NCBI GenBank assembly: GCA_021783175.1
Contig: JAJXUF010000064.1
Span: forward strand, 1 to 17,327
Length of the DNA stretch: 17,327 bases
Source: Pseudomonadota bacterium
GTDB taxonomy: Bacteria; Pseudomonadota; Gammaproteobacteria; Acidiferrobacterales; UBA6901
Reading direction: 5' to 3'
Positions 3,780 through 16,557 of the stretch are shown one piece after another. How positions within the stretch are numbered: the stretch's first letter is position 1; each line of letters begins with the position of its first letter. A program made the translations under genes and the position numbers. The notes below the pieces were generated by a model, which was given only the letters and a program-made list of their open reading frames with translations, was not told where the DNA came from and searched no databases.

Positions 3780-3799
3780 AACAGGTTGTCATGCCTGTT
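3780..3799. repeat. Inverted repeat in the fsr leader
   Basis: AACAGG (3780-3785) and CCTGTT (3794-3799) form a perfect 6-bp dyad with an 8-bp spacer, 11 bp upstream of the GTG start of the fsr-like gene. It could be an operator half-site pair or a small hairpin in the 5' leader. Function is inferred only from position. Confidence 0.35.
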
Positions 3800-4003
3800 T
3801 CACAGCGTAGCAAATCTACGTTCGCTAGGCCAAGTTCGGCGCGGAATGTATGGCGGCTCCTCAGCAGGATGTTCTGCGACAGCGTCCATGCGTTAAATCT
3901 GGATGCGTCACTCCTTCCTGCCCCAATTCGCAGTAGAACATTCAATCATTGCGGCCGGCACAATAAATTCCATGGTTAAGCATCCTGGCAGAGTCGATCC
4001 AAG

Positions 4004-6081: not shown

Positions 6082-6852
6082 ACCACCTTCTTTAGTTGAA
6101 GATGTTCCTTCCTGCTATCAACGTTGTTTGCGGCACTGGCTAGTGTCAACATGATCGTCTGGCGTTCTACCTGCCCGTGACATAGATTTGCGCACGTGCC
6201 TTGCTGGACCGCGAGTGCAGAATTACGCCACTCCTTTGCGTGTTCCCGTACTCATTTCGCAGGACGGTCGTGGAAAGTTATTTTGCAGAATTACCCGCGA
6301 CAAGCAGATGGGGCAAGCTCACGTTGCAATTGAATTGCACAGCGACTACATGCTGGTTGTCGCGCAGATCAATCAAAAACGAGCAGCGCTATGGAAAATT
6401 TGCGAACAGTACATCATCAATGAACAAATAAAAGAATATTAGAACATTCGGAAATTTTACGATTGTTGAGCGGGCCACATTGTGCGGTGCAGGGAATGAA
6501 AACCTAATGCCTGGCGCCTTTTGATTCGGCATGCAAATGCGCCAGGATAACGGCAGGTACCGGCCTCAAACGGGAAAAAAACGATGCGGCTTAATGAGAC
6601 TAGCCGGTCAAAAGAAAGACAATTTCCATGCCAGCACCCAGGATCTCAATAAGCCAAATCACGCACCGCCTTTTGAGCAGCAGGGGCGATGTGGCCTGCT
6701 TGCCGGCTATACTCTAGATAGATCATTATGATTAGCGGATGATTGCGTATTTCAGCCTCCACACCGGTTGGAGATTTAAATCAATCGGGCGGTGCCTGCT
6801 TTTTGGAAACGCCGTTTAGAAGCACACAAATCAAACGCGGGGCGCTAAACCA

Positions 6853-7194: not shown

Positions 7195-10089
7195 ATGAAG
7201 ACTGATCGCTGGATTACCGCAATTGGGGCAACTGTTGCCGTATTCGGCACGGCGATCCTACTCGCCCGGGCAGCGCCGACCGCACTGGCCAACGTCATTG
7301 CGGCCAATCCGCCAACGGCCGCAACAGGTCTATGCTTCTTCCTCTCCGGCGTAGCACTACTGCTTCCGCTTTCCTCTTTCCGGTTCTGGCGTATTGGATA
7401 TCAGTCCATCGGGGTAGCACTGCTGTTGATATCCTGGATCGCATCGGCGCGATATTGGCCAAATCGGATCAACATCCCGCTTCTTTCCGCTGTCTTGACT
7501 GAGGCGGGTTTCGAAAATTTTTCCTTCAGCTTGTCGCCTAGCGCAGCACTGGCCTTCACTTTAGCTTGGCTCGCGCTGATTGGCGTTTCGCACTCACGAA
7601 GCAAATTCTGGACTGGTGTGATCGTCGTTGCGCTTTTTGGCATTCTGATGCTCGGCGCTGCCTACATTGTGATCAATCTGTTCGACGTTGGCATCCTTTT
7701 TAGTCGTTACGATCAGAACGGCATGATGGTGGTGACTGCCATTGGACTGCTTGTCCTCGATGCAGGTCTGTTTGCGGTAGCGTACTCGGCCGGTCATTTT
7801 ACGTCGCTTGTTGCCATTCCGCCTGACAAGAAAATCACCTTTATTGGCGGTGCCATCGTACTGCTCTTCGGACTTGTCGTTGGTCTAGCAGTTTCTGGAC
7901 TGTGGGTGCGCACGACAATTGGAATCATCGAGGATAGCCTGCGGATTTCTCTAAACAACAGGGTGCAGACTTACCAGGCCGCGATTGATGCTGCGATGAC
8001 CAAGACGAATCTCATTAGCAGACAGACACGTTTTCACCGATTGATGGCCGAGTTGGCAAAACAACCGGACAATCAACTGGTGCGTGAAGAACTGAACAGG
8101 ATACTGGACCATACGCTTGTGGGCACCGGCATAACAGGTATCGCGATTTACGATGTGGCGGGGCACCTTATCGGGGAACGGGGAAGCATCCCTGCCAACT
8201 CCCGGCTACAAGCAGCGCTGCAATTTTCTTCCAACGCCGTACTGCTGTGGGACAATCGCTCGATACTGAAGGTTAGTGTCCCTGTTTTTCAGGGAATGAA
8301 ACATTTAGGCAACATTGTGGTTGCCGGGCCTTTGCCGACAATCGATCGACTAATGGTGGATGTTACCGGCCTGGGACGAACCGGGACAATGGCGGTATGT
8401 TCGGTCAACGGCAAGAACTGGGTGTGTTTTCCGAACCGTATCAATAGCTTCCAGGGAAAAATACTCACTCCTCGAATGCAGACCTTCGCGCGGGCGATGG
8501 CTTACGCGCTTCACGGCAAGAAGGGCGTCATTTATTCAACCGACCCGCAGAATCGCCGAGTACTGGCGGCCTATGGGCCGATTGGTCCTCTTGGTCTCGG
8601 AATGGTAGTTCGCGTGCGCACAACCGAGCTATTCCAGCCGGTGCGCGCGCGGTTTTTCGAGATTTTGATCCCGCTCACTATCCTGGAAGTAATTGGGCTT
8701 ATGCTGCTGCGCTGGCAGATCGCCCCGCTGGCCGCGAAATTGGTACACGAAATCCAGGAGCGAAAGGCGGCGGAGGAAAGACTCAGCTACCTCGCCCATC
8801 ACGACACTCTTACGGGTCTACCCAATCGCGCACTTCTGCATGATCGTCTACAACAGGCAATCGTCGACGCTGGCCGTCACGGATGGGTGGTCGCGGTCAT
8901 GTACCTGGATCTCGACAATTTTAAAGATATTAACGACACACTCGGGCACGAGGCCGGCGATATGCTGCTCAAAGAAGTTGCAATGCGCCTGACGAGTTGC
9001 GTGCGGTCCGGTGATACGGTATCACATCTGGGTGGTGACGAGTTCTGCTGTATTCTCGCCGGTGTTGCGCATTCCGGAGACGTGAACAAAGTCGCGGAGA
9101 AGATCCTGGAAGGTTTTTCTGGACCCTGTATGATTGGCGACCGCGAGCTATTCATCAACGTAAGCGTTGGCATAACGCTCTACCCTCTGGACGCACGCAC
9201 TCCACAAGACCTTCTCAAGAATGCCGATATCGCCATGTATCGCGCCAAGAAACACGGTGGTGGAAACTACCAGTATTATTCCGCGGATCTCGCGGTCGTG
9301 GCCGCAGAACGTCTGGCTTTGCAGACCGCGCTTCGCCATGCGATCGTGAACGGAGAGTTGCAGCTGCACTATCAACCGCAAGTGGACTTGCGCAATGGCC
9401 GCATGATAGCAGTGGAGGCGCTGTTACGCTGGCACCACCCTGATCGGGGCTGGATCCCTCCGGCTCAATTTGTGCCGCTGGCCGAGGACTGTGGACTAAT
9501 CCTTCCAATCGGCGAGTGGGTACTGAACGAGGCCTGTCGCCAGACCAGGCAGTGGCATGATGCCGGTCACCGCGGATTGCGGCTTGCCGTCAATCTGTCC
9601 GGACGGCAATTTCGCCAAGAAAGATTTGCAGCCAAACTTGCATCGATACTTTCAGATACAGGCCTGAGCCCGCAGCTTTTCGAGATAGAGCTGACGGAGA
9701 GTCTTTTGATGAGCGACATCGACGGAATGACTGGGACACTGGAGCAGCTCCACGACCTTGGAATCACCATTTCAATAGACGATTTTGGAACAGGCTATTC
9801 CTCACTCAGCTACCTGAAACGCTTTCCAATCTCCATACTAAAAATAGATCGCTCGTTCGTAGAGCATATAACCGTGGATTCGGATGACGCAGCCATCGTT
9901 ACCACAATCGTAAACATGGCACGCGGTCTAGGAATGAAGGTTGTTGCCGAAGGTGTGGAAACAAGGGAACAGCTGGCATTTTTGCGTTCGCTCGATTGTG
10001 ACGTCATGCAAGGGAATTACTTCAGTCCGTCTCTGTCCGCCGCCGATTTAAGTCAGCTTCTGCAGGAAGCACGCCGACTTACTGCCTAA
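7195..10089 (+). CDS. Membrane-bound GGDEF-EAL cyclic-di-GMP synthase/phosphodiesterase
   Basis: A 964-residue signalling protein. About seven hydrophobic helices occupy residues 8-238. A sensor-like region predicted to be periplasmic spans about 240-485, an eighth helix about 488-506, and a short linker leads to the catalytic domains. The GGDEF domain has an intact GGDEF at 613-617 and the inhibitory RxxD site (RSGD, 604-607) at the usual five-residue distance. The EAL domain has EAL at 741-743, DDFGTGYSSL near 862, KIDRSF near 883 and VAEGVET near 917, so both activities may be retained. Tandem proteins often favour one activity in vivo, which sequence cannot decide. The N-terminal membrane block was not matched to a named MASE domain. 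ATG 7195 follows an in-frame TGA at 7189-7191, so it is the earliest possible start, but it has a poor ribosome binding site. The TAA overlaps the stop codon of the convergent agt-like gene. Confidence 0.93.
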   Translation: MKTDRWITAIGATVAVFGTAILLARAAPTALANVIAANPPTAATGLCFFLSGVALLLPLSSFRFWRIGYQSIGVALLLISWIASARYWPNRINIPLLSAVLTEAGFENFSFSLSPSAALAFTLAWLALIGVSHSRSKFWTGVIVVALFGILMLGAAYIVINLFDVGILFSRYDQNGMMVVTAIGLLVLDAGLFAVAYSAGHFTSLVAIPPDKKITFIGGAIVLLFGLVVGLAVSGLWVRTTIGIIEDSLRISLNNRVQTYQAAIDAAMTKTNLISRQTRFHRLMAELAKQPDNQLVREELNRILDHTLVGTGITGIAIYDVAGHLIGERGSIPANSRLQAALQFSSNAVLLWDNRSILKVSVPVFQGMKHLGNIVVAGPLPTIDRLMVDVTGLGRTGTMAVCSVNGKNWVCFPNRINSFQGKILTPRMQTFARAMAYALHGKKGVIYSTDPQNRRVLAAYGPIGPLGLGMVVRVRTTELFQPVRARFFEILIPLTILEVIGLMLLRWQIAPLAAKLVHEIQERKAAEERLSYLAHHDTLTGLPNRALLHDRLQQAIVDAGRHGWVVAVMYLDLDNFKDINDTLGHEAGDMLLKEVAMRLTSCVRSGDTVSHLGGDEFCCILAGVAHSGDVNKVAEKILEGFSGPCMIGDRELFINVSVGITLYPLDARTPQDLLKNADIAMYRAKKHGGGNYQYYSADLAVVAAERLALQTALRHAIVNGELQLHYQPQVDLRNGRMIAVEALLRWHHPDRGWIPPAQFVPLAEDCGLILPIGEWVLNEACRQTRQWHDAGHRGLRLAVNLSGRQFRQERFAAKLASILSDTGLSPQLFEIELTESLLMSDIDGMTGTLEQLHDLGITISIDDFGTGYSSLSYLKRFPISILKIDRSFVEHITVDSDDAAIVTTIVNMARGLGMKVVAEGVETREQLAFLRSLDCDVMQGNYFSPSLSAADLSQLLQEARRLTA

Positions 10090-11132
10090 TTTCCCGCTCT
10101 GCCAGTTGCCGATTGCCGGGCAGCTACGTCGGGCGCAGTCGCAATACTCAGATGCCCTAGAAACTGCCTGGTACAAGTCTCCCATGAGTACTGCAATGCT
10201 TCCGCTCGACAAGCGTTTGGATCGAGCGTCGCGGCGCGTTCCGCTGCCTCCTTCAGGTCCGTATTCAAAAAGCCGGTAACGCCGTTCTTAATTATATCTA
10301 CCGGACCCTGTACCGGAAACGCTGCGACGGGCACCCCGCAGGCGAGCGCCTCGATTATCACCAAGCCGAACGTATCGGTGCGACTCGGAAACACGAACAC
10401 ATCCGCGGCCGCGACATGCTGCGCTAGCTCTCTTCCGGTCTTGTAACCGGTAAAGCGTACTTGCGGATATTTGTGCTTCAGCATTTCCAGATCCGGACCG
10501 CCGCCTACAACGAATTTAGTTCCATCCAGGTCCAGATTAAGAAACGCCTGGATATTCTTCTCCACCGCAACCCGTCCCATGTACATGAATATCGGACGTG
10601 GCGCATCAAGAAACGTCTTGTCGTACGGACGAAACACCTCGGTGTCGACGCCACGAGACCACATGCCGAGATTGCGAAATCCGCGTTCTTCAAGACGTGC
10701 TCGCAGCGTTTCAGTTGCAACCATTACGGTGGCTGCGCGGCCGTGAAACCAGCGCATGAAGCGGTAACCTGCGGCGAGGGGTATGCCTGTGCGCAACTTC
10801 ACATATTCGGGAAACTGCGTGTGAAAAGATGTAGTGAAGGGTAATCCCTTCTTTAAACACCACGAGCGCGCAGCCAAACCGAGCGGCCCTTCAGTGGCGA
10901 TATGCACGGCATCCGGACTGGCATTGTCCAACAGTTTTGTGACTCGCGCCCCAGGTAAAAGAGCTAGGCGGATTTCCGGATAAGTAGGACAGGGAACCGT
11001 GCGGAACGCGTCTGGCGTGATCATCTGCACACTGTGTCCCAAGCGCAACAACTCGTCGCGCGTGCGCGACAGAGTGTTGACCACACCGTTAATCTGCGGA
11101 TACCAGGCGTCGCTGACGAAAACGATATTCAT
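10086..11132 (-). CDS. GT4-family glycosyltransferase, likely diacylglycerol glycosyltransferase (Agt-like)
   Basis: A 348-residue GT-B fold enzyme of family GT4. The N-terminal Rossmann half opens with MNIVFVSDAWYPQINGVVNT and carries SFHTQFPEYV. The C-terminal half has YMGRVAVEKNI, VVGGGPDLEMLKHKYP and the donor-binding TDTFGLVIIEALACGVPV near 252-269, where Asp takes the place of the first Glu of the EX7E motif. Relatives include MgtA-type mannosyltransferases, SqdX-like enzymes and Agt, which makes glycolipids from diacylglycerol during phosphate starvation. The start at 11132 has GGAAG about 9 bp upstream; a longer frame opens at 11165. It overlaps the plcP-like gene by 44 bp, so the two are co-transcribed and probably translationally coupled. 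This pairing supports diacylglycerol as acceptor. The sugar donor cannot be told from sequence. Confidence 0.82.
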   Translation of the reverse strand: MNIVFVSDAWYPQINGVVNTLSRTRDELLRLGHSVQMITPDAFRTVPCPTYPEIRLALLPGARVTKLLDNASPDAVHIATEGPLGLAARSWCLKKGLPFTTSFHTQFPEYVKLRTGIPLAAGYRFMRWFHGRAATVMVATETLRARLEERGFRNLGMWSRGVDTEVFRPYDKTFLDAPRPIFMYMGRVAVEKNIQAFLNLDLDGTKFVVGGGPDLEMLKHKYPQVRFTGYKTGRELAQHVAAADVFVFPSRTDTFGLVIIEALACGVPVAAFPVQGPVDIIKNGVTGFLNTDLKEAAERAATLDPNACRAEALQYSWETCTRQFLGHLSIATAPDVAARQSATGRAGN

Positions 11133-11898
11133 TCTGTGTTTCTTCCAGGAGGTAGACACTTTCATCGGCCCAGTGAATTACGGCAAGAGATCCGTCTTCG
11201 TGTTCAACCAGTGCCGTACAGCTTTCAACCCAATCACCATCGTTGCAGTAAAGCATGTTGTCGTAAGATTCTATTGTCGCCTTGTGAATGTGGCCACAGA
11301 CGATTCCATCTACCCCGCGCCGGCGCGCCTCGTGTACCAGTGCCTGCTCGAAGCTGCTGATGAAATTTACCGCGCTCTTTGTTTTCTGTTTTAGATAGGC
11401 GGCGAGAGACCAGTAGCCGAACCCAAATCGACGACGGAAAAAGTTGACCCAACGGTTTAGGTAGAGCAGTACGTCGTAGATGCCACTACCCAATATGGCT
11501 AGCCACTTGCTGTGTTTTACGATCGTGTCGAACTCATCTCCGTGTATCACCAGCAGGCGCCGGCCATCTGCGGTTTGGTGAACAACATCGGCTGCCACGT
11601 GGACTCCACCGAAGATCCGTCCTATGTGTTCGCGGAAGACTTCGTCGTGATTTCCTGGAACATAGACGACTCGCGTCCCCTTCGATGCCTTCTCCATGAC
11701 GGATTGAATTACCTGGTTATGCAGCGACGGCCAGTACCAGCCGTTTTTTAGGTTCCAGAAATCGATGATGTCACCCGCGAGATATAGATGACGCGACTCT
11801 GTATGATTCAGGAAGTCGAGAAGATACTGGGCCTTACAGGATTTCGTACCAAGATGAACGTCGGAAATCCAGATGGTTCGAAAGCGTAGCGGCTTCAT
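11089..11898 (-). CDS. plcP: PlcP-like phospholipase C (metallophosphoesterase annotated as LpxH-like)
   Basis: A 269-residue calcineurin-type metallophosphoesterase. Metal-binding motifs appear in order: SDVHLG (Asp13, His15), GDIIDFW (Asp43), GNHDE (Asn83, His84), HGDEFD (119-124) and GHIH (202-205). Automated pipelines usually name this group UDP-2,3-diacylglucosamine diphosphatase. However, WYWPSLHN, HQTADGRRLLVIHGDEFD and GDWVESCTALVEH are, as I recall, typical of the PlcP branch characterised in Sinorhizobium and marine bacteria. There it cleaves the head group from phosphatidylcholine, phosphatidylethanolamine or phosphatidylglycerol to give diacylglycerol under phosphate limitation. 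The partner GT4 gene immediately downstream fits that role. No lpx gene lies nearby. The start at 11898 matches the domain start; an ATG at 11931 would add 11 residues. Expression from the 11899-12043 region may respond to phosphate. LpxH activity is the main alternative. Confidence 0.78.
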   Translation of the reverse strand: MKPLRFRTIWISDVHLGTKSCKAQYLLDFLNHTESRHLYLAGDIIDFWNLKNGWYWPSLHNQVIQSVMEKASKGTRVVYVPGNHDEVFREHIGRIFGGVHVAADVVHQTADGRRLLVIHGDEFDTIVKHSKWLAILGSGIYDVLLYLNRWVNFFRRRFGFGYWSLAAYLKQKTKSAVNFISSFEQALVHEARRRGVDGIVCGHIHKATIESYDNMLYCNDGDWVESCTALVEHEDGSLAVIHWADESVYLLEETQNEYRFRQRRLVSAD

Positions 11899-11954
11899 AT
11901 GACGGTCTCTGCGGATTTTCCTGGTGCGCACTATGCCCTTTTGCGTTGAAGGAT

Positions 11955-12005
11955 TTGTGACCGTTTCGTGATTTTTATGTCATATTTCAGTCATGCCATC
12001 GTCAT
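11955..12005 (+). promoter_or_regulatory. Candidate PHO-box array between plcP-like gene and dgkA
   Basis: Five related units start at exact 11-bp steps: TTGTGAC (11955), TCGTGAT (11966), ATGTCAT (11977), CAGTCAT (11988) and TCGTCAT (11999). The last three match the PHO-box half-site CTGTCAT at 6, 6 and 5 of 7 positions on the plus strand. The first two read better on the minus strand as CGGTCAC and AAATCAC, pointing toward the plcP-like gene. PhoB binds direct 7-bp repeats separated by 4 bp, which is this spacing. The units at 11977-11994 end 11 bp before a perfect -10, the arrangement of PhoB-activated promoters. Assigned by eye. Confidence 0.6.
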
Positions 12006-12011
12006 TATAAT
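12006..12011 (+). promoter_or_regulatory. -10 box of dgkA promoter
   Basis: This is a perfect TATAAT. No TTGACA-like -35 lies at the right distance; the GTCAT repeats occupy that position, which fits an activator-dependent promoter. Transcription would start near 12018, giving a short leader before the dgkA ribosome binding site at 12032-12035. Confidence 0.6.
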
Positions 12012-12043
12012 TCTCTGTGCCACACGTCATTGGAGACCTGTTC

Positions 12044-12439
12044 ATGGGGATAGTTAAGAAGCTTTTGGTCAGCAGCAGCGATATTGGACGCATCATTCGC
12101 GCCGGCAGCTATTCAGTGTCTGGTTTGCATGCAGCACTGAAAAAAGAGGCGGCGTTTCGTCAGGAAGTAATTCTTTTTGTGGTGCTTGCACCGCTTGGTG
12201 CATGGCTTGGTCGCAACGGCGTTGAACGTGCACTACTGATCGGTAGTTTGCTGCTTGTTATGATAGTCGAACTACTCAACTCTTCGGTAGAAGCAACAGT
12301 GGATCGAATCAGCCGCAAGCACCACAAGCTTTCAGGTCGAGCCAAGGATATGGGTTCAGCCGCCGTTTCGCTGTCTATTTTCCTCGCCGTGCTCGTCTGG
12401 GTTTTGATTCTCGCTGATCATTACAAGTGGCGATTCTAA
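12044..12439 (+). CDS. dgkA: Diacylglycerol kinase (DgkA, prokaryotic type)
   Basis: A 131-residue integral membrane kinase, normal length for the family (E. coli 121). It phosphorylates diacylglycerol to phosphatidic acid with ATP at the inner membrane. Family motifs are EAAFRQE (35-41), the active-site segment VELLNSSVEATVDR (75-88), and KLSGRAKDMGSAAV (about 95-108), with three hydrophobic helices. The start at 12044 has GGAG 8 bp upstream; an in-frame ATG at 12017 would begin at or just before the likely transcription start and is rejected. It is divergent from the plcP-like gene. PlcP makes diacylglycerol, Agt consumes it and DgkA recycles it, so the divergent pair is functionally coherent. 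In E. coli, DgkA mainly recycles diacylglycerol from osmoregulated-glucan synthesis, so a housekeeping role is also possible. Confidence 0.94.
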   Translation: MGIVKKLLVSSSDIGRIIRAGSYSVSGLHAALKKEAAFRQEVILFVVLAPLGAWLGRNGVERALLIGSLLLVMIVELLNSSVEATVDRISRKHHKLSGRAKDMGSAAVSLSIFLAVLVWVLILADHYKWRF

Positions 12440-13051
12440 ACGATTTCGAAGACCACGGTGCCTAGGGAAGTTCGACAGATGCGGGTTGGCAATCTCCGAT
12501 TTAACTTCGGGAGGCGCCCACAAATTGGAAACAGTGCTTTGTCTGTTTCACGCCAAGTATCATTCGACTCAACTGAAATTTCCGGAGAATCATGGACAAA
12601 TTCAGCGCGACAATCCATGGAAATATACGCAGTTTTCGTACGCTTCCTAATGGTTAGTCGCAATTTGGTGTTCGATCCAGGATTTCCAGCTCGACAGCAC
12701 CGATGTCGACTTGCAGTGCAGTCAATGCCGAATGGAGTACGTTCGCACGACACATTGGATGGAGCCAATCAAGCAAGAACGGGCTGTCTAGCGCAAACCC
12801 CACGCAGGTTCATCAATAGCGCGCCGCGCCGGCCGAGCCTGTTACTTTTGAGACTTAAACCAGGAGCGCGATGCTGATGTCTATGACTGCAGCGCCAAGA
12901 TTGCTCTGGCAGAAAGCGGATTCACTTATCGTCGCCAGCGTTATTACAACATCGACGGTGAGGGTTTAAGTGTTACTCGTTCCGGTTCTCGATGATGGGC
13001 CCTTGAGGTTATGCCTGGTTGCCGCAGATTTCGTAGACGTCACTCAGTTGA
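12440..13051. other. Gene-poor stretch after dgkA
   Basis: Open frames on both strands (12458-12877 plus, 12436-12768 minus) overlap each other and have low-complexity, charge-poor compositions with no motif or ribosome binding site. A 47-codon open stretch without a start codon (12852-12995 plus), containing SGFTYRRQRYYNIDGE, looks protein-like and might be a gene remnant. I see no terminator with a T run behind dgkA, and no RNA gene. Confidence 0.45.
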
Positions 13052-14696: not shown

Positions 14697-15515
14697 TCAA
14701 CTCGCGATGACGTCGCTGTGCCCTCGAACGTTGAGCCCGAGCGCATTCAGTACGTTGGCGCGCCCAAGATTCGCCAGCGCGCGCCGATCCTGGCCTGGGC
14801 AGCAAATCAGATTGCAGAAACTTAACTTCACTGTTAGGCCGTGCTCGGAGAGCAAGGCCCAGAGATGCGAAACCAGAGCATCATCACCTACGAAGGCAGC
14901 CTTGGGGTGGTTTCGGTCGCCATGTGGATAACTGACAGCAACCACCTGCACCGGAGATTCGGTGCGGATCGCCGCCTGAAAGAGGCGTGGATGAAATGGG
15001 CGCACCACGCTTCCGTCGGTGGTAGTTCCCTCCGGGAAAAACAGGACCGAGCGTTGCTGCCGAAGCGACCGCGTCATACGGTCGGCTGCAAGCACCGTAG
15101 TGTCTGTTTTTCCGCGTGCCAGAAAAATCGTTCCAACGCGCGCCACCATGCCACCGAGGAGTGGCCAACGCCTGACGTCGTCTTTGGCAACGAAATCGAC
15201 ATCGACGATTGAGCGCAGACAAATGACATCAAGCCAGGAGACATGATTGGAAATGAAAAGCGCTGGTATCTTGGGAACGTCTCCATCGATTAAAAGACGC
15301 AGATTCAAAATGCGCGTTACACCTAGCATCCACCAACGTACCAGCGCGTCGGAATTCTGGCGTGTCCTTTGCCATCGCAGCAACGGCAGCAGACCGTGAG
15401 CGAGCACAACGCCAACCAGGATATGCGCAATGATGCGCACTAGACGCACTGTGCGCTTTACCTCGCGCCAGCATGCATCGCTTGTTCGGTCAACGATTGA
15501 CGAAGTGGCGAACAT
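14697..15515 (-). CDS. olsA: PlsC-family acyltransferase, likely OlsA (lyso-ornithine lipid O-acyltransferase)
   Basis: A 272-residue membrane-associated acyltransferase. An N-terminal hydrophobic segment (about 25-45) precedes the catalytic NHVSWLD (His91, Asp96; HX4D box) and the glycerolipid-binding FPEGTT (160-165). The basic family reaction is acylation of 1-acylglycerol-3-phosphate. It follows an OlsB-like gene with a 26-bp overlap, so the more likely role is the second step of ornithine lipid synthesis, O-acylation of lyso-ornithine lipid to the phosphorus-free aminolipid. OlsA enzymes can also act as PlsC, and sequence alone does not separate the two. The ATG at 15515 has no strong ribosome binding site; translation coupled to olsB is likely. 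Shine-Dalgarno-independent starts are common in such overlaps. The remote C-terminus is variable. Confidence 0.82.
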   Translation of the reverse strand: MFATSSIVDRTSDACWREVKRTVRLVRIIAHILVGVVLAHGLLPLLRWQRTRQNSDALVRWWMLGVTRILNLRLLIDGDVPKIPALFISNHVSWLDVICLRSIVDVDFVAKDDVRRWPLLGGMVARVGTIFLARGKTDTTVLAADRMTRSLRQQRSVLFFPEGTTTDGSVVRPFHPRLFQAAIRTESPVQVVAVSYPHGDRNHPKAAFVGDDALVSHLWALLSEHGLTVKLSFCNLICCPGQDRRALANLGRANVLNALGLNVRGHSDVIAS

Positions 15516-16275
15516 AGCGCGTTTTCATCTGGTCTGCGCGCAGCAGGATAAAGAGATCAGCAACATTGAACTGCGGGTCCCACGCAGGTTCACCGCATAT
15601 CCTGGCTCCCACGCGCAAATATGCCTTTAACAACGGCGGGATCGCCCCACCCTCCTGGTCACCAACTAGATTGACTTGCGGCAACCGCACCTTTGGAACT
15701 ACGCGCCACTGTTCCGGTGCCAGATAGTTGTCTTTGAGGTGATCGTAGAGCGCTTGCGCCGCGCCGGTACCATGACCTAGCGGGATACTCGCACAACCCA
15801 TGAGATAATCGAAACGATTCTTGACCATGTATCGGGCAAGTCCTTGCCAAAGCAGTGCAATCGTAGCACCGGTACGGTAGTCGGGATGCACGCAGGTGCG
15901 GCCCACCTCCATCAGTCGTCCGGGCAACGACAATATGCGGGTAAGATCAAATTCCCCGGCCGAATAGTAGCCGCCTGCCTTTTCCACCTGGGTGCTGGTC
16001 AGGATGCGATAGCAACCGACTATTCTATTGACTTCGATATCACGCACTATTAGGTGTTCGCAAAAGGGATCGAAGTGATCACGCTCGACACCGGCTTCGA
16101 TCGTTTCGATGCGTGCGCCCATTTCTTCAACAAACACCTGATAGCGCAATCTCTGAACAGCTTCGATGTCCTTGGGCGAATCCGCGAGTTCAACCTGCAG
16201 GCGCGGGACGGGTGTCGGTGGCAGTTCTGAGCGAAACTGGGCATTAGCGTTCAGCGCAGGGATCATGGCGGTCAT
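15490..16275 (-). CDS. olsB: OlsB-like L-ornithine N-alpha-acyltransferase (GNAT-type)
   Basis: A 261-residue protein of the hemolysin-like/OlsB acyltransferase group, distantly related to GNAT enzymes. Landmarks are QRLRYQVFVEEMGA (42-54), DHFDPFCEHLIVRD (66-79), GCYRILTSTQ and the characteristic RLMEVGRTCVHPDYR (120-134), then LLWQGLARYM and MGCASIPLG. OlsB transfers a 3-hydroxyacyl group from acyl carrier protein to the alpha-amine of ornithine, giving lyso-ornithine lipid. The overlapping downstream acyltransferase would complete it. Relatives are often annotated only as GNAT N-acetyltransferase or hemolysin. ATG 16275 is the first start, with a weak ACGGAAA before it; ATG 16266 is an alternative. 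A three-unit PHO-box-like array lies about 50 bp upstream, in the orientation of this gene. Ornithine lipid genes are phosphate-starvation induced in several bacteria. Confidence 0.83.
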   Translation of the reverse strand: MTAMIPALNANAQFRSELPPTPVPRLQVELADSPKDIEAVQRLRYQVFVEEMGARIETIEAGVERDHFDPFCEHLIVRDIEVNRIVGCYRILTSTQVEKAGGYYSAGEFDLTRILSLPGRLMEVGRTCVHPDYRTGATIALLWQGLARYMVKNRFDYLMGCASIPLGHGTGAAQALYDHLKDNYLAPEQWRVVPKVRLPQVNLVGDQEGGAIPPLLKAYLRVGARICGEPAWDPQFNVADLFILLRADQMKTRYVRHFVNR

Positions 16276-16326
16276 TTTCCGTTATGTGTTGTGCGGAACA
16301 CGATGACGGAACAGTGTTACCTGTAG

Positions 16327-16355
16327 ATGGCAGTCGAATGTCGGTTTTCTGACAG
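16327..16355 (-). promoter_or_regulatory. Candidate PHO box upstream of olsB-olsA
   Basis: Read on the minus strand toward olsB, three units occur at exact 11-bp steps: CTGTCAG (16355-16349), CCGACAT (16344-16338) and CTGCCAT (16333-16327). Against the half-site CTGTCAT they match at 6, 5 and 6 of 7 positions. The 4-bp spacer of the first pair is AAAA, as in the E. coli consensus. The last unit ends 51 bp before the olsB ATG. No convincing -10 hexamer follows; TAACAC (16319-16314) is the nearest candidate. Assigned by eye. Confidence 0.6.
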
Positions 16356-16557
16356 CATCCAGTCAGCTTAAGTCACCGGACTTTCATGGGTTACCACGGA
16401 TTTCCATTGCATTCCGAGTTCCTTGCGGAACAAGCATCCGCTTAGGGTCCGGATCGTGATCGAGGGTATGCACCTGCGCCGTGAGATTGCCGGATCCGAC
16501 GCGGACCCTAACTGAATCCAGATCAAACAGGCGCGCCGGTCCGGCAAAGCCTAAGTC

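Follow-up and report, generated by a model that had tools for sequence, protein, structure and literature searches.

To our knowledge, dgkA of Escherichia coli has not been described as a Pho gene. An earlier note on the DNA studied here had departed from this textbook view and placed a dgkA gene in the Pho regulon, behind five PHO-box-like repeats with an 11-bp period. The question raised by the locus is whether such repeats form a PhoB-activated promoter and, if so, which of the genes around it that promoter serves.

Genes of the plcP-dgkA locus

On its minus strand the window, that is, the whole stretch of 17,327 nucleotides that was analysed, has overlapping genes for a metallophosphoesterase and a GT4 glycosyltransferase; dgkA lies on the plus strand, and genes for OlsB- and OlsA-like acyltransferases follow farther on. 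The genes nearest the repeats were assigned as follows:

10086..11165, minus strand, agt, GT4 glycosyltransferase, second gene in the plcP operon
11089..11898, minus strand, plcP, PlcP-type metallophosphoesterase (Metallophos)
12044..12439, plus strand, dgkA, prokaryotic diacylglycerol kinase (PF01219, E 1e-34)

By its DAGK_prokar domain and by a segment held in common with E. coli DgkA, IVE.LNS..EA.VDRI....H.LSGRAKDMGSAAV, the product of the window dgkA is DgkA; the two proteins belong to the same family, and the alignment with the solved E. coli structure (3ze4) extended over 117 residues. Translation was taken to begin at ATG 12044, which has GGAG just upstream, whereas GTG 12017 was ruled out as the start, lying only 5 bp past the −10 element listed below. 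The metallophosphoesterase, a putative intracellular phospholipase C, fits PlcP, the enzyme of this kind in cells starved of phosphate, because 79 of 80 related loci have an agt-like gene following it. It was distinct from LpxH, scoring 47 bits against LpxH models with cut-offs of 134 and 190; its gene shares an operon with a gene of lipid synthesis, and expectation-maximisation (EM) recovered a PHO motif. The plcP orthologues likewise lie in an operon with agt and have PHO boxes upstream. Agt is, by the same context, a putative diacylglycerol glycosyltransferase. Public records naming plcP orthologues mostly call them UDP-2,3-diacylglucosamine pyrophosphatase LpxH, a label that is probably wrong for these PlcP-type proteins. 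Candidatus Muproteobacteria was among the few organism names attached to the proteins nearest to the window PlcP, closer kin have PlcP proteins of 75-87% identity, and the nearest genomes reached were those of the order that includes G003 and G004, hereafter the same order.

In marine bacteria (PMC4796936) and Pseudomonas (PMC8528852) plcP has been reported upstream of agt, and the PlcP-Agt operons of marine heterotrophs and Pseudomonas in those papers have the order seen in the window, plcP then agt with a PHO box upstream. The window differs from them in its divergent dgkA, which has its promoter region in common with plcP. A search of the main text of PMC4796936 for the word kinase gave nothing, and the neighbours described there therefore do not include dgkA.

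PHO boxes in the plcP-dgkA gap

Two PHO-box matrices were derived blind, by EM from random seeds, on plcP upstream regions without an adjoining dgkA; the mixed matrix came from 66 proteobacterial regions and the gamma matrix from 84 gammaproteobacterial ones. Both runs gave an 11-bp direct-repeat PHO box (gamma version TGTCATnAAAnnGTCAT), estimated to be present in 88% (mixed) and 80% (gamma) of the regions. As controls we chose the promoters of 5 of 12 PstS matches and of 7 of 8 PhoB matches over the cut-off (the one omitted is a second PhoB in G006). In G001, G002, and G006 the pst matches fell under the family cut-off, and these are termed pst-like. The gamma matrix gave 13.7-21.6 bits in all 12 of these phoB and pst or pst-like promoters, from six relatives. 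When both strands of the window, about 34,600 positions, were scanned, the two best sites with either matrix lay between plcP and dgkA and pointed apart. The elements of this gap are:

11930..11935, minus strand, −10 element CATAGT for plcP, exactly 10 bp past its box
11946..11963, minus strand, candidate PHO box CGGTCAC AAAT CCTTCAA, facing plcP (15.1 bits mixed, 16.1 gamma)
11968..11974, minus strand, extra plcP-facing half-site AAATCAC (GTGAT at 11968 on the other strand)
11977..11994, plus strand, candidate PHO box ATGTCAT ATTT CAGTCAT facing dgkA, two 11-bp-phased half-sites, supported by the blind matrices and by same-order conservation
11999..12005, plus strand, third half-site TCGTCAT, in phase and abutting the −10 element, with the same layout in L334
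12006..12011, plus strand, −10 element TATAAT for dgkA, 11 bp past the box, no −35

The repeats were where the earlier note had put them. Its five cores, GTGAC at 11957, GTGAT at 11968, and GTCAT at 11979, 11990, and 12001, follow one another at exactly 11 bp; the unit at 11977-11994 reads ATGTCATATTTCAGTCAT and is followed by 11 bp and then by the perfect TATAAT. Its claim that dgkA has no −35 was also borne out, since a sigma-70 scan of 11600-12500 gave no promoter pair at all (shuffles, mean 0.9), and the TATAAT therefore has no −35 partner. The box at 11977-11994, a pair of TGTCA-type 11-bp direct repeats, matched the PhoB matrices above background, with 15.3 bits by the mixed matrix (p 2.6e-6; first in the window) and 14.0 bits by the gamma matrix (p 7.8e-6; second), and the overlapping box at 11988-12005 scored 10.1. 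What did not survive was the reading of all five units as a single array directed at dgkA, which we ruled out by the matrix scan: on the minus strand GTGAC 11957 and GTGAT 11968 are GTCAC and ATCAC, half-sites of the second box, the one facing plcP, where the overlapping minus-strand box at 11957-11974 scored 9.4. The PhoB-type architecture proposed for dgkA was thus upheld for the box at 11977-11994, which scores as a PHO box in the direction of dgkA and occupies the place of a −35, and not for the ladder as a whole. That the two divergent boxes are in the same 11-bp phase may be chance.

Could the whole resemblance be accidental? The plus strand of the window contains 58 5-mers of the form GT[GC]A[CT], with one five-step 11-bp ladder among them; in Markov random windows even a three-step ladder of this form arose in none of 2000, and three GTCAT at 11-bp steps in 1 of 2000, counting either strand. 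Two results favour chance: a search of the window for the two-unit pattern at two mismatches showed no enrichment (6 matches versus 4.0 expected), and with the gamma matrix a box as good as that of dgkA is expected 0.27 times per window, and one as good as that of plcP 0.05 times. Because of these expectations, much of the argument rests on position and conservation. Taken together, the ladder statistics, the ranking of the two boxes at the top of the window, and the conservation described below all speak against an accident, which we consider the least credible of the explanations weighed here.

On the plcP side the box stands in the place of a −35, 10 bp before CATAGT, as expected of a PhoB-activated promoter; on the dgkA side the distance to TATAAT is 11 bp. 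From the −10 positions, transcription starts near 12018 (plus strand) and 11924 (minus strand) and leaders of about 26 bases each are predicted for the two genes. CATAGT lies 10 bp past the plcP-facing box likewise in L025, L339, and L002, and, read by eye, past a weak plcP-facing box (6.2 bits) in L334. In the phoB promoters of the relatives an NNNAAT hexamer was found exactly 10 bp past the box in seven of seven. The −10-like hexamers past 53 plcP sites were most frequent at 10 bp (seven) and 21 bp (eight), with one at 11 bp; in the mixed plcP sites tandem boxes blur the −10 position. E. coli-type PhoB promoters (consensus CTGTCATNNNNCTGTCAT, as quoted in PMC8528852) have 11-bp direct repeats in place of the −35 and a −10 downstream, as does the window; the window departs from them in having two divergent boxes within 145 bp, a dgkA-side gap of 11 bp rather than 10, and a third half-site touching the −10. 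According to the E. coli PhoB map (PMC10294691), structural models support strict spacing. Since the dgkA gap is 11 bp against a norm of 10 bp and strict spacing, binding of PhoB would be surer in this organism than activation of dgkA by PhoB; the assignment of dgkA to the Pho regulon thus has the support of the facing box and its matrix score, qualified by the gap.

Direct repeats with an 11-bp phase are bound by several regulators of the OmpR family, and the site might be used by one of these other than PhoB. We regard this as very improbable: the phoB and pst promoters of the relatives have this motif too, and a PhoB over the family cut-off is encoded by all six relatives tested.

Conservation and linkage to plcP

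Among 57 genomes of the same order, 12 encode a PlcP-like protein at E < 1e-70; seven of these proteins are close, at 66-75% identity, and a divergent dgkA is present at five of the seven loci. In all five the box facing dgkA scored 12.0-14.1 bits and was followed by a −10-like hexamer, this being the best hexamer at 8-12 bp and hence subject to some freedom of choice. It stood at 10 bp in L335 (TATAAT), L336 (TACCGT), L338 (TAGCGT), and L339 (TTCAAT), and at 11 bp, as in the window, in L334 (TAAGAT), which also has the three-unit layout of the window. Alignment of the window with L334 showed the GTCA cores, TA..AT, and ACTATG on the plcP side to be kept, with differing spacers. With the window included, shuffling gave P 0.002-0.015 for the dgkA-facing box in six of six same-order divergent pairs, or 5e-9 combined; the independent evidence is smaller than this because L335 and L336 are near copies, and L334, L335, L338, and L339 alone gave 2e-6. 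In a DgkA tree the window protein fell beside that of L334 with weak support (86/84). The close relatives without dgkA at plcP had plcP-side scores of 20.5 (L337) and 8.4 (L340), and upstream of the five distant same-order plcP homologues (L341-L345) there was no PHO box, dgkA being likewise absent there. These five form a PlcP-like group of 49-51% identity with a differing glycosyltransferase neighbour, about 30% identical to agt.

Over all 16 divergent pairs, window included, the dgkA-facing box was present at P<0.05 in 12 and the plcP-facing box in 11. The four pairs lacking the former at this level (L001, L017, L019, L126) are among the 10 more distant ones; conservation of the repeats, on which the earlier claim depended, therefore held in every same-order divergent relative and failed in four of 10 pairs beyond.

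To place these pairs in a wider frame we surveyed 369 gammaproteobacterial genomes, which yielded 104 plcP loci, several of them cut off by a contig end short of 1.5 kb. In 14 of the 104 the 1.5 kb or so upstream of plcP include a dgkA, divergent in seven and co-directional in seven. The 90 dgkA upstream regions scored comprised 30 loci and 60 stretches from a longer list (dgkA matches occurred in 225 of the 369 genomes). A genome was classed as plcP-bearing when its match reached about 177 bits, so that G207 and G295, with fragments only, were classed as without; adjacency to plcP was visible only in the 30 longer loci, and the dgkA of G096 (L313, about 2 kb off) was classed as non-adjacent. 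Facing boxes scoring 11 bits or higher preceded 5 of the 8 dgkA genes next to plcP; among the other dgkA genes they preceded 2 of 28 where the genome has plcP and 0 of 54 where it does not. Matches on the opposite strand of the same regions numbered 5/8, 1/28, and 4/54, and facing matches away from plcP are therefore at background. The Fisher p for the facing-box contrast, 2.5e-5, is too small, as survey rows are related; the related genomes G069, G205, and G308 supply three of the five adjacent positives. Each of these three genomes has two dgkA copies, of which the plcP-adjacent one has the facing PHO box; the stand-alone copies of G069 and G308 had no strong facing box, and that of G205 had a 10.3-bit match overlapping its start. 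The dgkA of G094, a same-order genome without a plcP match, was outside the best 25 upstream regions, all of which scored above 5 bits. Separately, L278 (G091) and L279 (G130), in plcP-bearing genomes, have a dgkA apart from plcP with facing PHO boxes of 15.8 and 15.3 bits.

These comparisons bear on the principal alternative, that all half-sites serve plcP-agt and that dgkA is transcribed outside phosphate control from a promoter of its own, the TATAAT with a poor −35. The plcP orthologues do widely carry boxes without an adjoining dgkA, and the 11-bp gap in place of 10 bp fits this alternative as well. In L002 and L025 the dgkA-facing box is present but is not followed by a good −10 at a suitable distance, and downstream one can make out by eye a separate TTGAAT-17-TATGGT promoter. 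Among the co-directional pairs, six of seven lack a good box before dgkA (the exception being L205, 11.3 bits) and five of seven have at least 10 bits before plcP, so in those loci plcP, not dgkA, is the likely target. Against it, the box at 11977-11994 is directional, 15.3 bits toward dgkA versus 5.7 in reverse with the mixed matrix; in the same order a box at P<0.05 was kept on the dgkA side in all six pairs and on the plcP side in only three; and the sigma-70 scan left dgkA without a −35. We judge this alternative unlikely, though the most serious of those considered.

Diacylglycerol and the phosphate-starvation response

We propose, with a probability of about three in four, that the 145-bp gap is a bidirectional PhoB-activated promoter coupled to a diacylglycerol valve and a probable olsBA co-response. 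The gene order and linkage, the positions and directions of the boxes, the matrix scores, and the conservation support it directly; binding of PhoB~P, induction of both genes, and the direction of lipid flux we infer. Under phosphate starvation PhoB~P would bind the two divergent PHO boxes, whose centres are 31 bp apart, each box substituting for a −35; one would drive plcP-agt through CATAGT and the other dgkA through TATAAT. The action of PlcP on phospholipid would then yield diacylglycerol and a phosphate head group. Agt would attach a sugar to the diacylglycerol, and DgkA, induced along with the other two, would serve as an overflow valve by turning the excess back into phosphatidic acid. 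This valve idea rests on established enzyme chemistry, in which PlcP makes, Agt uses, and DgkA phosphorylates diacylglycerol.

The neighbouring olsBA-like genes would probably belong to the same response:

14697..15515, minus strand, olsA-like gene, lyso-ornithine lipid O-acyltransferase (NF052553, E 6.1e-35, below cut-off)
15490..16275, minus strand, olsB-like gene, ornithine N-acyltransferase (NF052554, E 3.4e-55, below cut-off)
16338-16355 and 16316-16333, minus strand, probable tandem PHO boxes before the olsB-like gene, 22 bp apart (11.8 and 10.8 bits)

The products scored 187.6 bits against an equivalog cut-off of 350 (OlsB) and 120.6 against 300 (OlsA), and the genes are therefore termed olsB- and olsA-like only. 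By gamma-matrix score their two boxes come fourth and sixth in the window, where two or three lipid units may be under Pho control. The third- and fifth-best gamma sites, plus-strand 16370-16387 (AAGTCACCGGACTTTCAT, 12.5 bits) and minus-strand 6391-6408 (11.0 bits), face no nameable gene, and a PHO-like site at plus-strand 3786-3803 (TTGTCATGCCTGTTTCAC, 13.4 bits mixed, 10.2 gamma) lies just upstream of an MFS transporter gene and points away from it. In another gammaproteobacterial genome (L188) plcP is preceded on its own strand by olsB- and olsA-like genes, and olsB-like matches occur near plcP in L171, L190, L238, and L242 too.

Part of this enzyme set has a precedent. PHO-dependent PlcP, DagK, OlsA, and OlsB have been reported in Pseudomonas putida BIRD-1 (PMC5082522), where the set of lipid enzymes seen in the window goes up in low phosphate; the list there of proteins absent from the phoBR mutant gives PlcP and OlsAB without DagK, and the discussion states that all are silenced. 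Because DagK was reported as PHO-dependent in that strain, Pho control of a diacylglycerol kinase is not a new kind of finding, and the claim that it runs against the textbook view needs tempering to that extent. What that report describes in this connection is protein abundance and not a shared promoter. The E. coli PhoB map (PMC10294691) makes no mention of dgkA in its main text; the open-licence literature on dgkA with Pho or lipid remodelling, searched by titles and abstract openings, offered no shared plcP-dgkA promoter, nor did the passages on dgkA in PMC13086504, PMC12282109, and PMC7649339. A bidirectional plcP-dgkA promoter thus appears to be undescribed in the literature searched.

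The shared promoter architecture ties diacylglycerol kinase to the lipid pathway of phosphate starvation and poses a puzzle, namely why a cell short of phosphate should co-induce a kinase that consumes the phosphate of ATP and reverses PlcP. A tentative reading, to which we give less than even odds, is that in this gammaproteobacterial lineage the plcP-linked, PhoB-controlled DgkA belongs specifically to lipid remodelling, the promoter setting the PlcP:DgkA ratio and with it a phospholipid-diacylglycerol cycle; in G069, G205, and G308 the plcP-linked gene would then be a second dgkA specialised for this role. The results also suggest that in such genomes the LpxH label has been given to PlcP genes. 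A valve against diacylglycerol toxicity or a regulated cycle, if true, would alter flux models of non-phosphorus lipid synthesis, and with a controlled phospholipid-diacylglycerol cycle the starving cell would not be limited to one-way lipid replacement.
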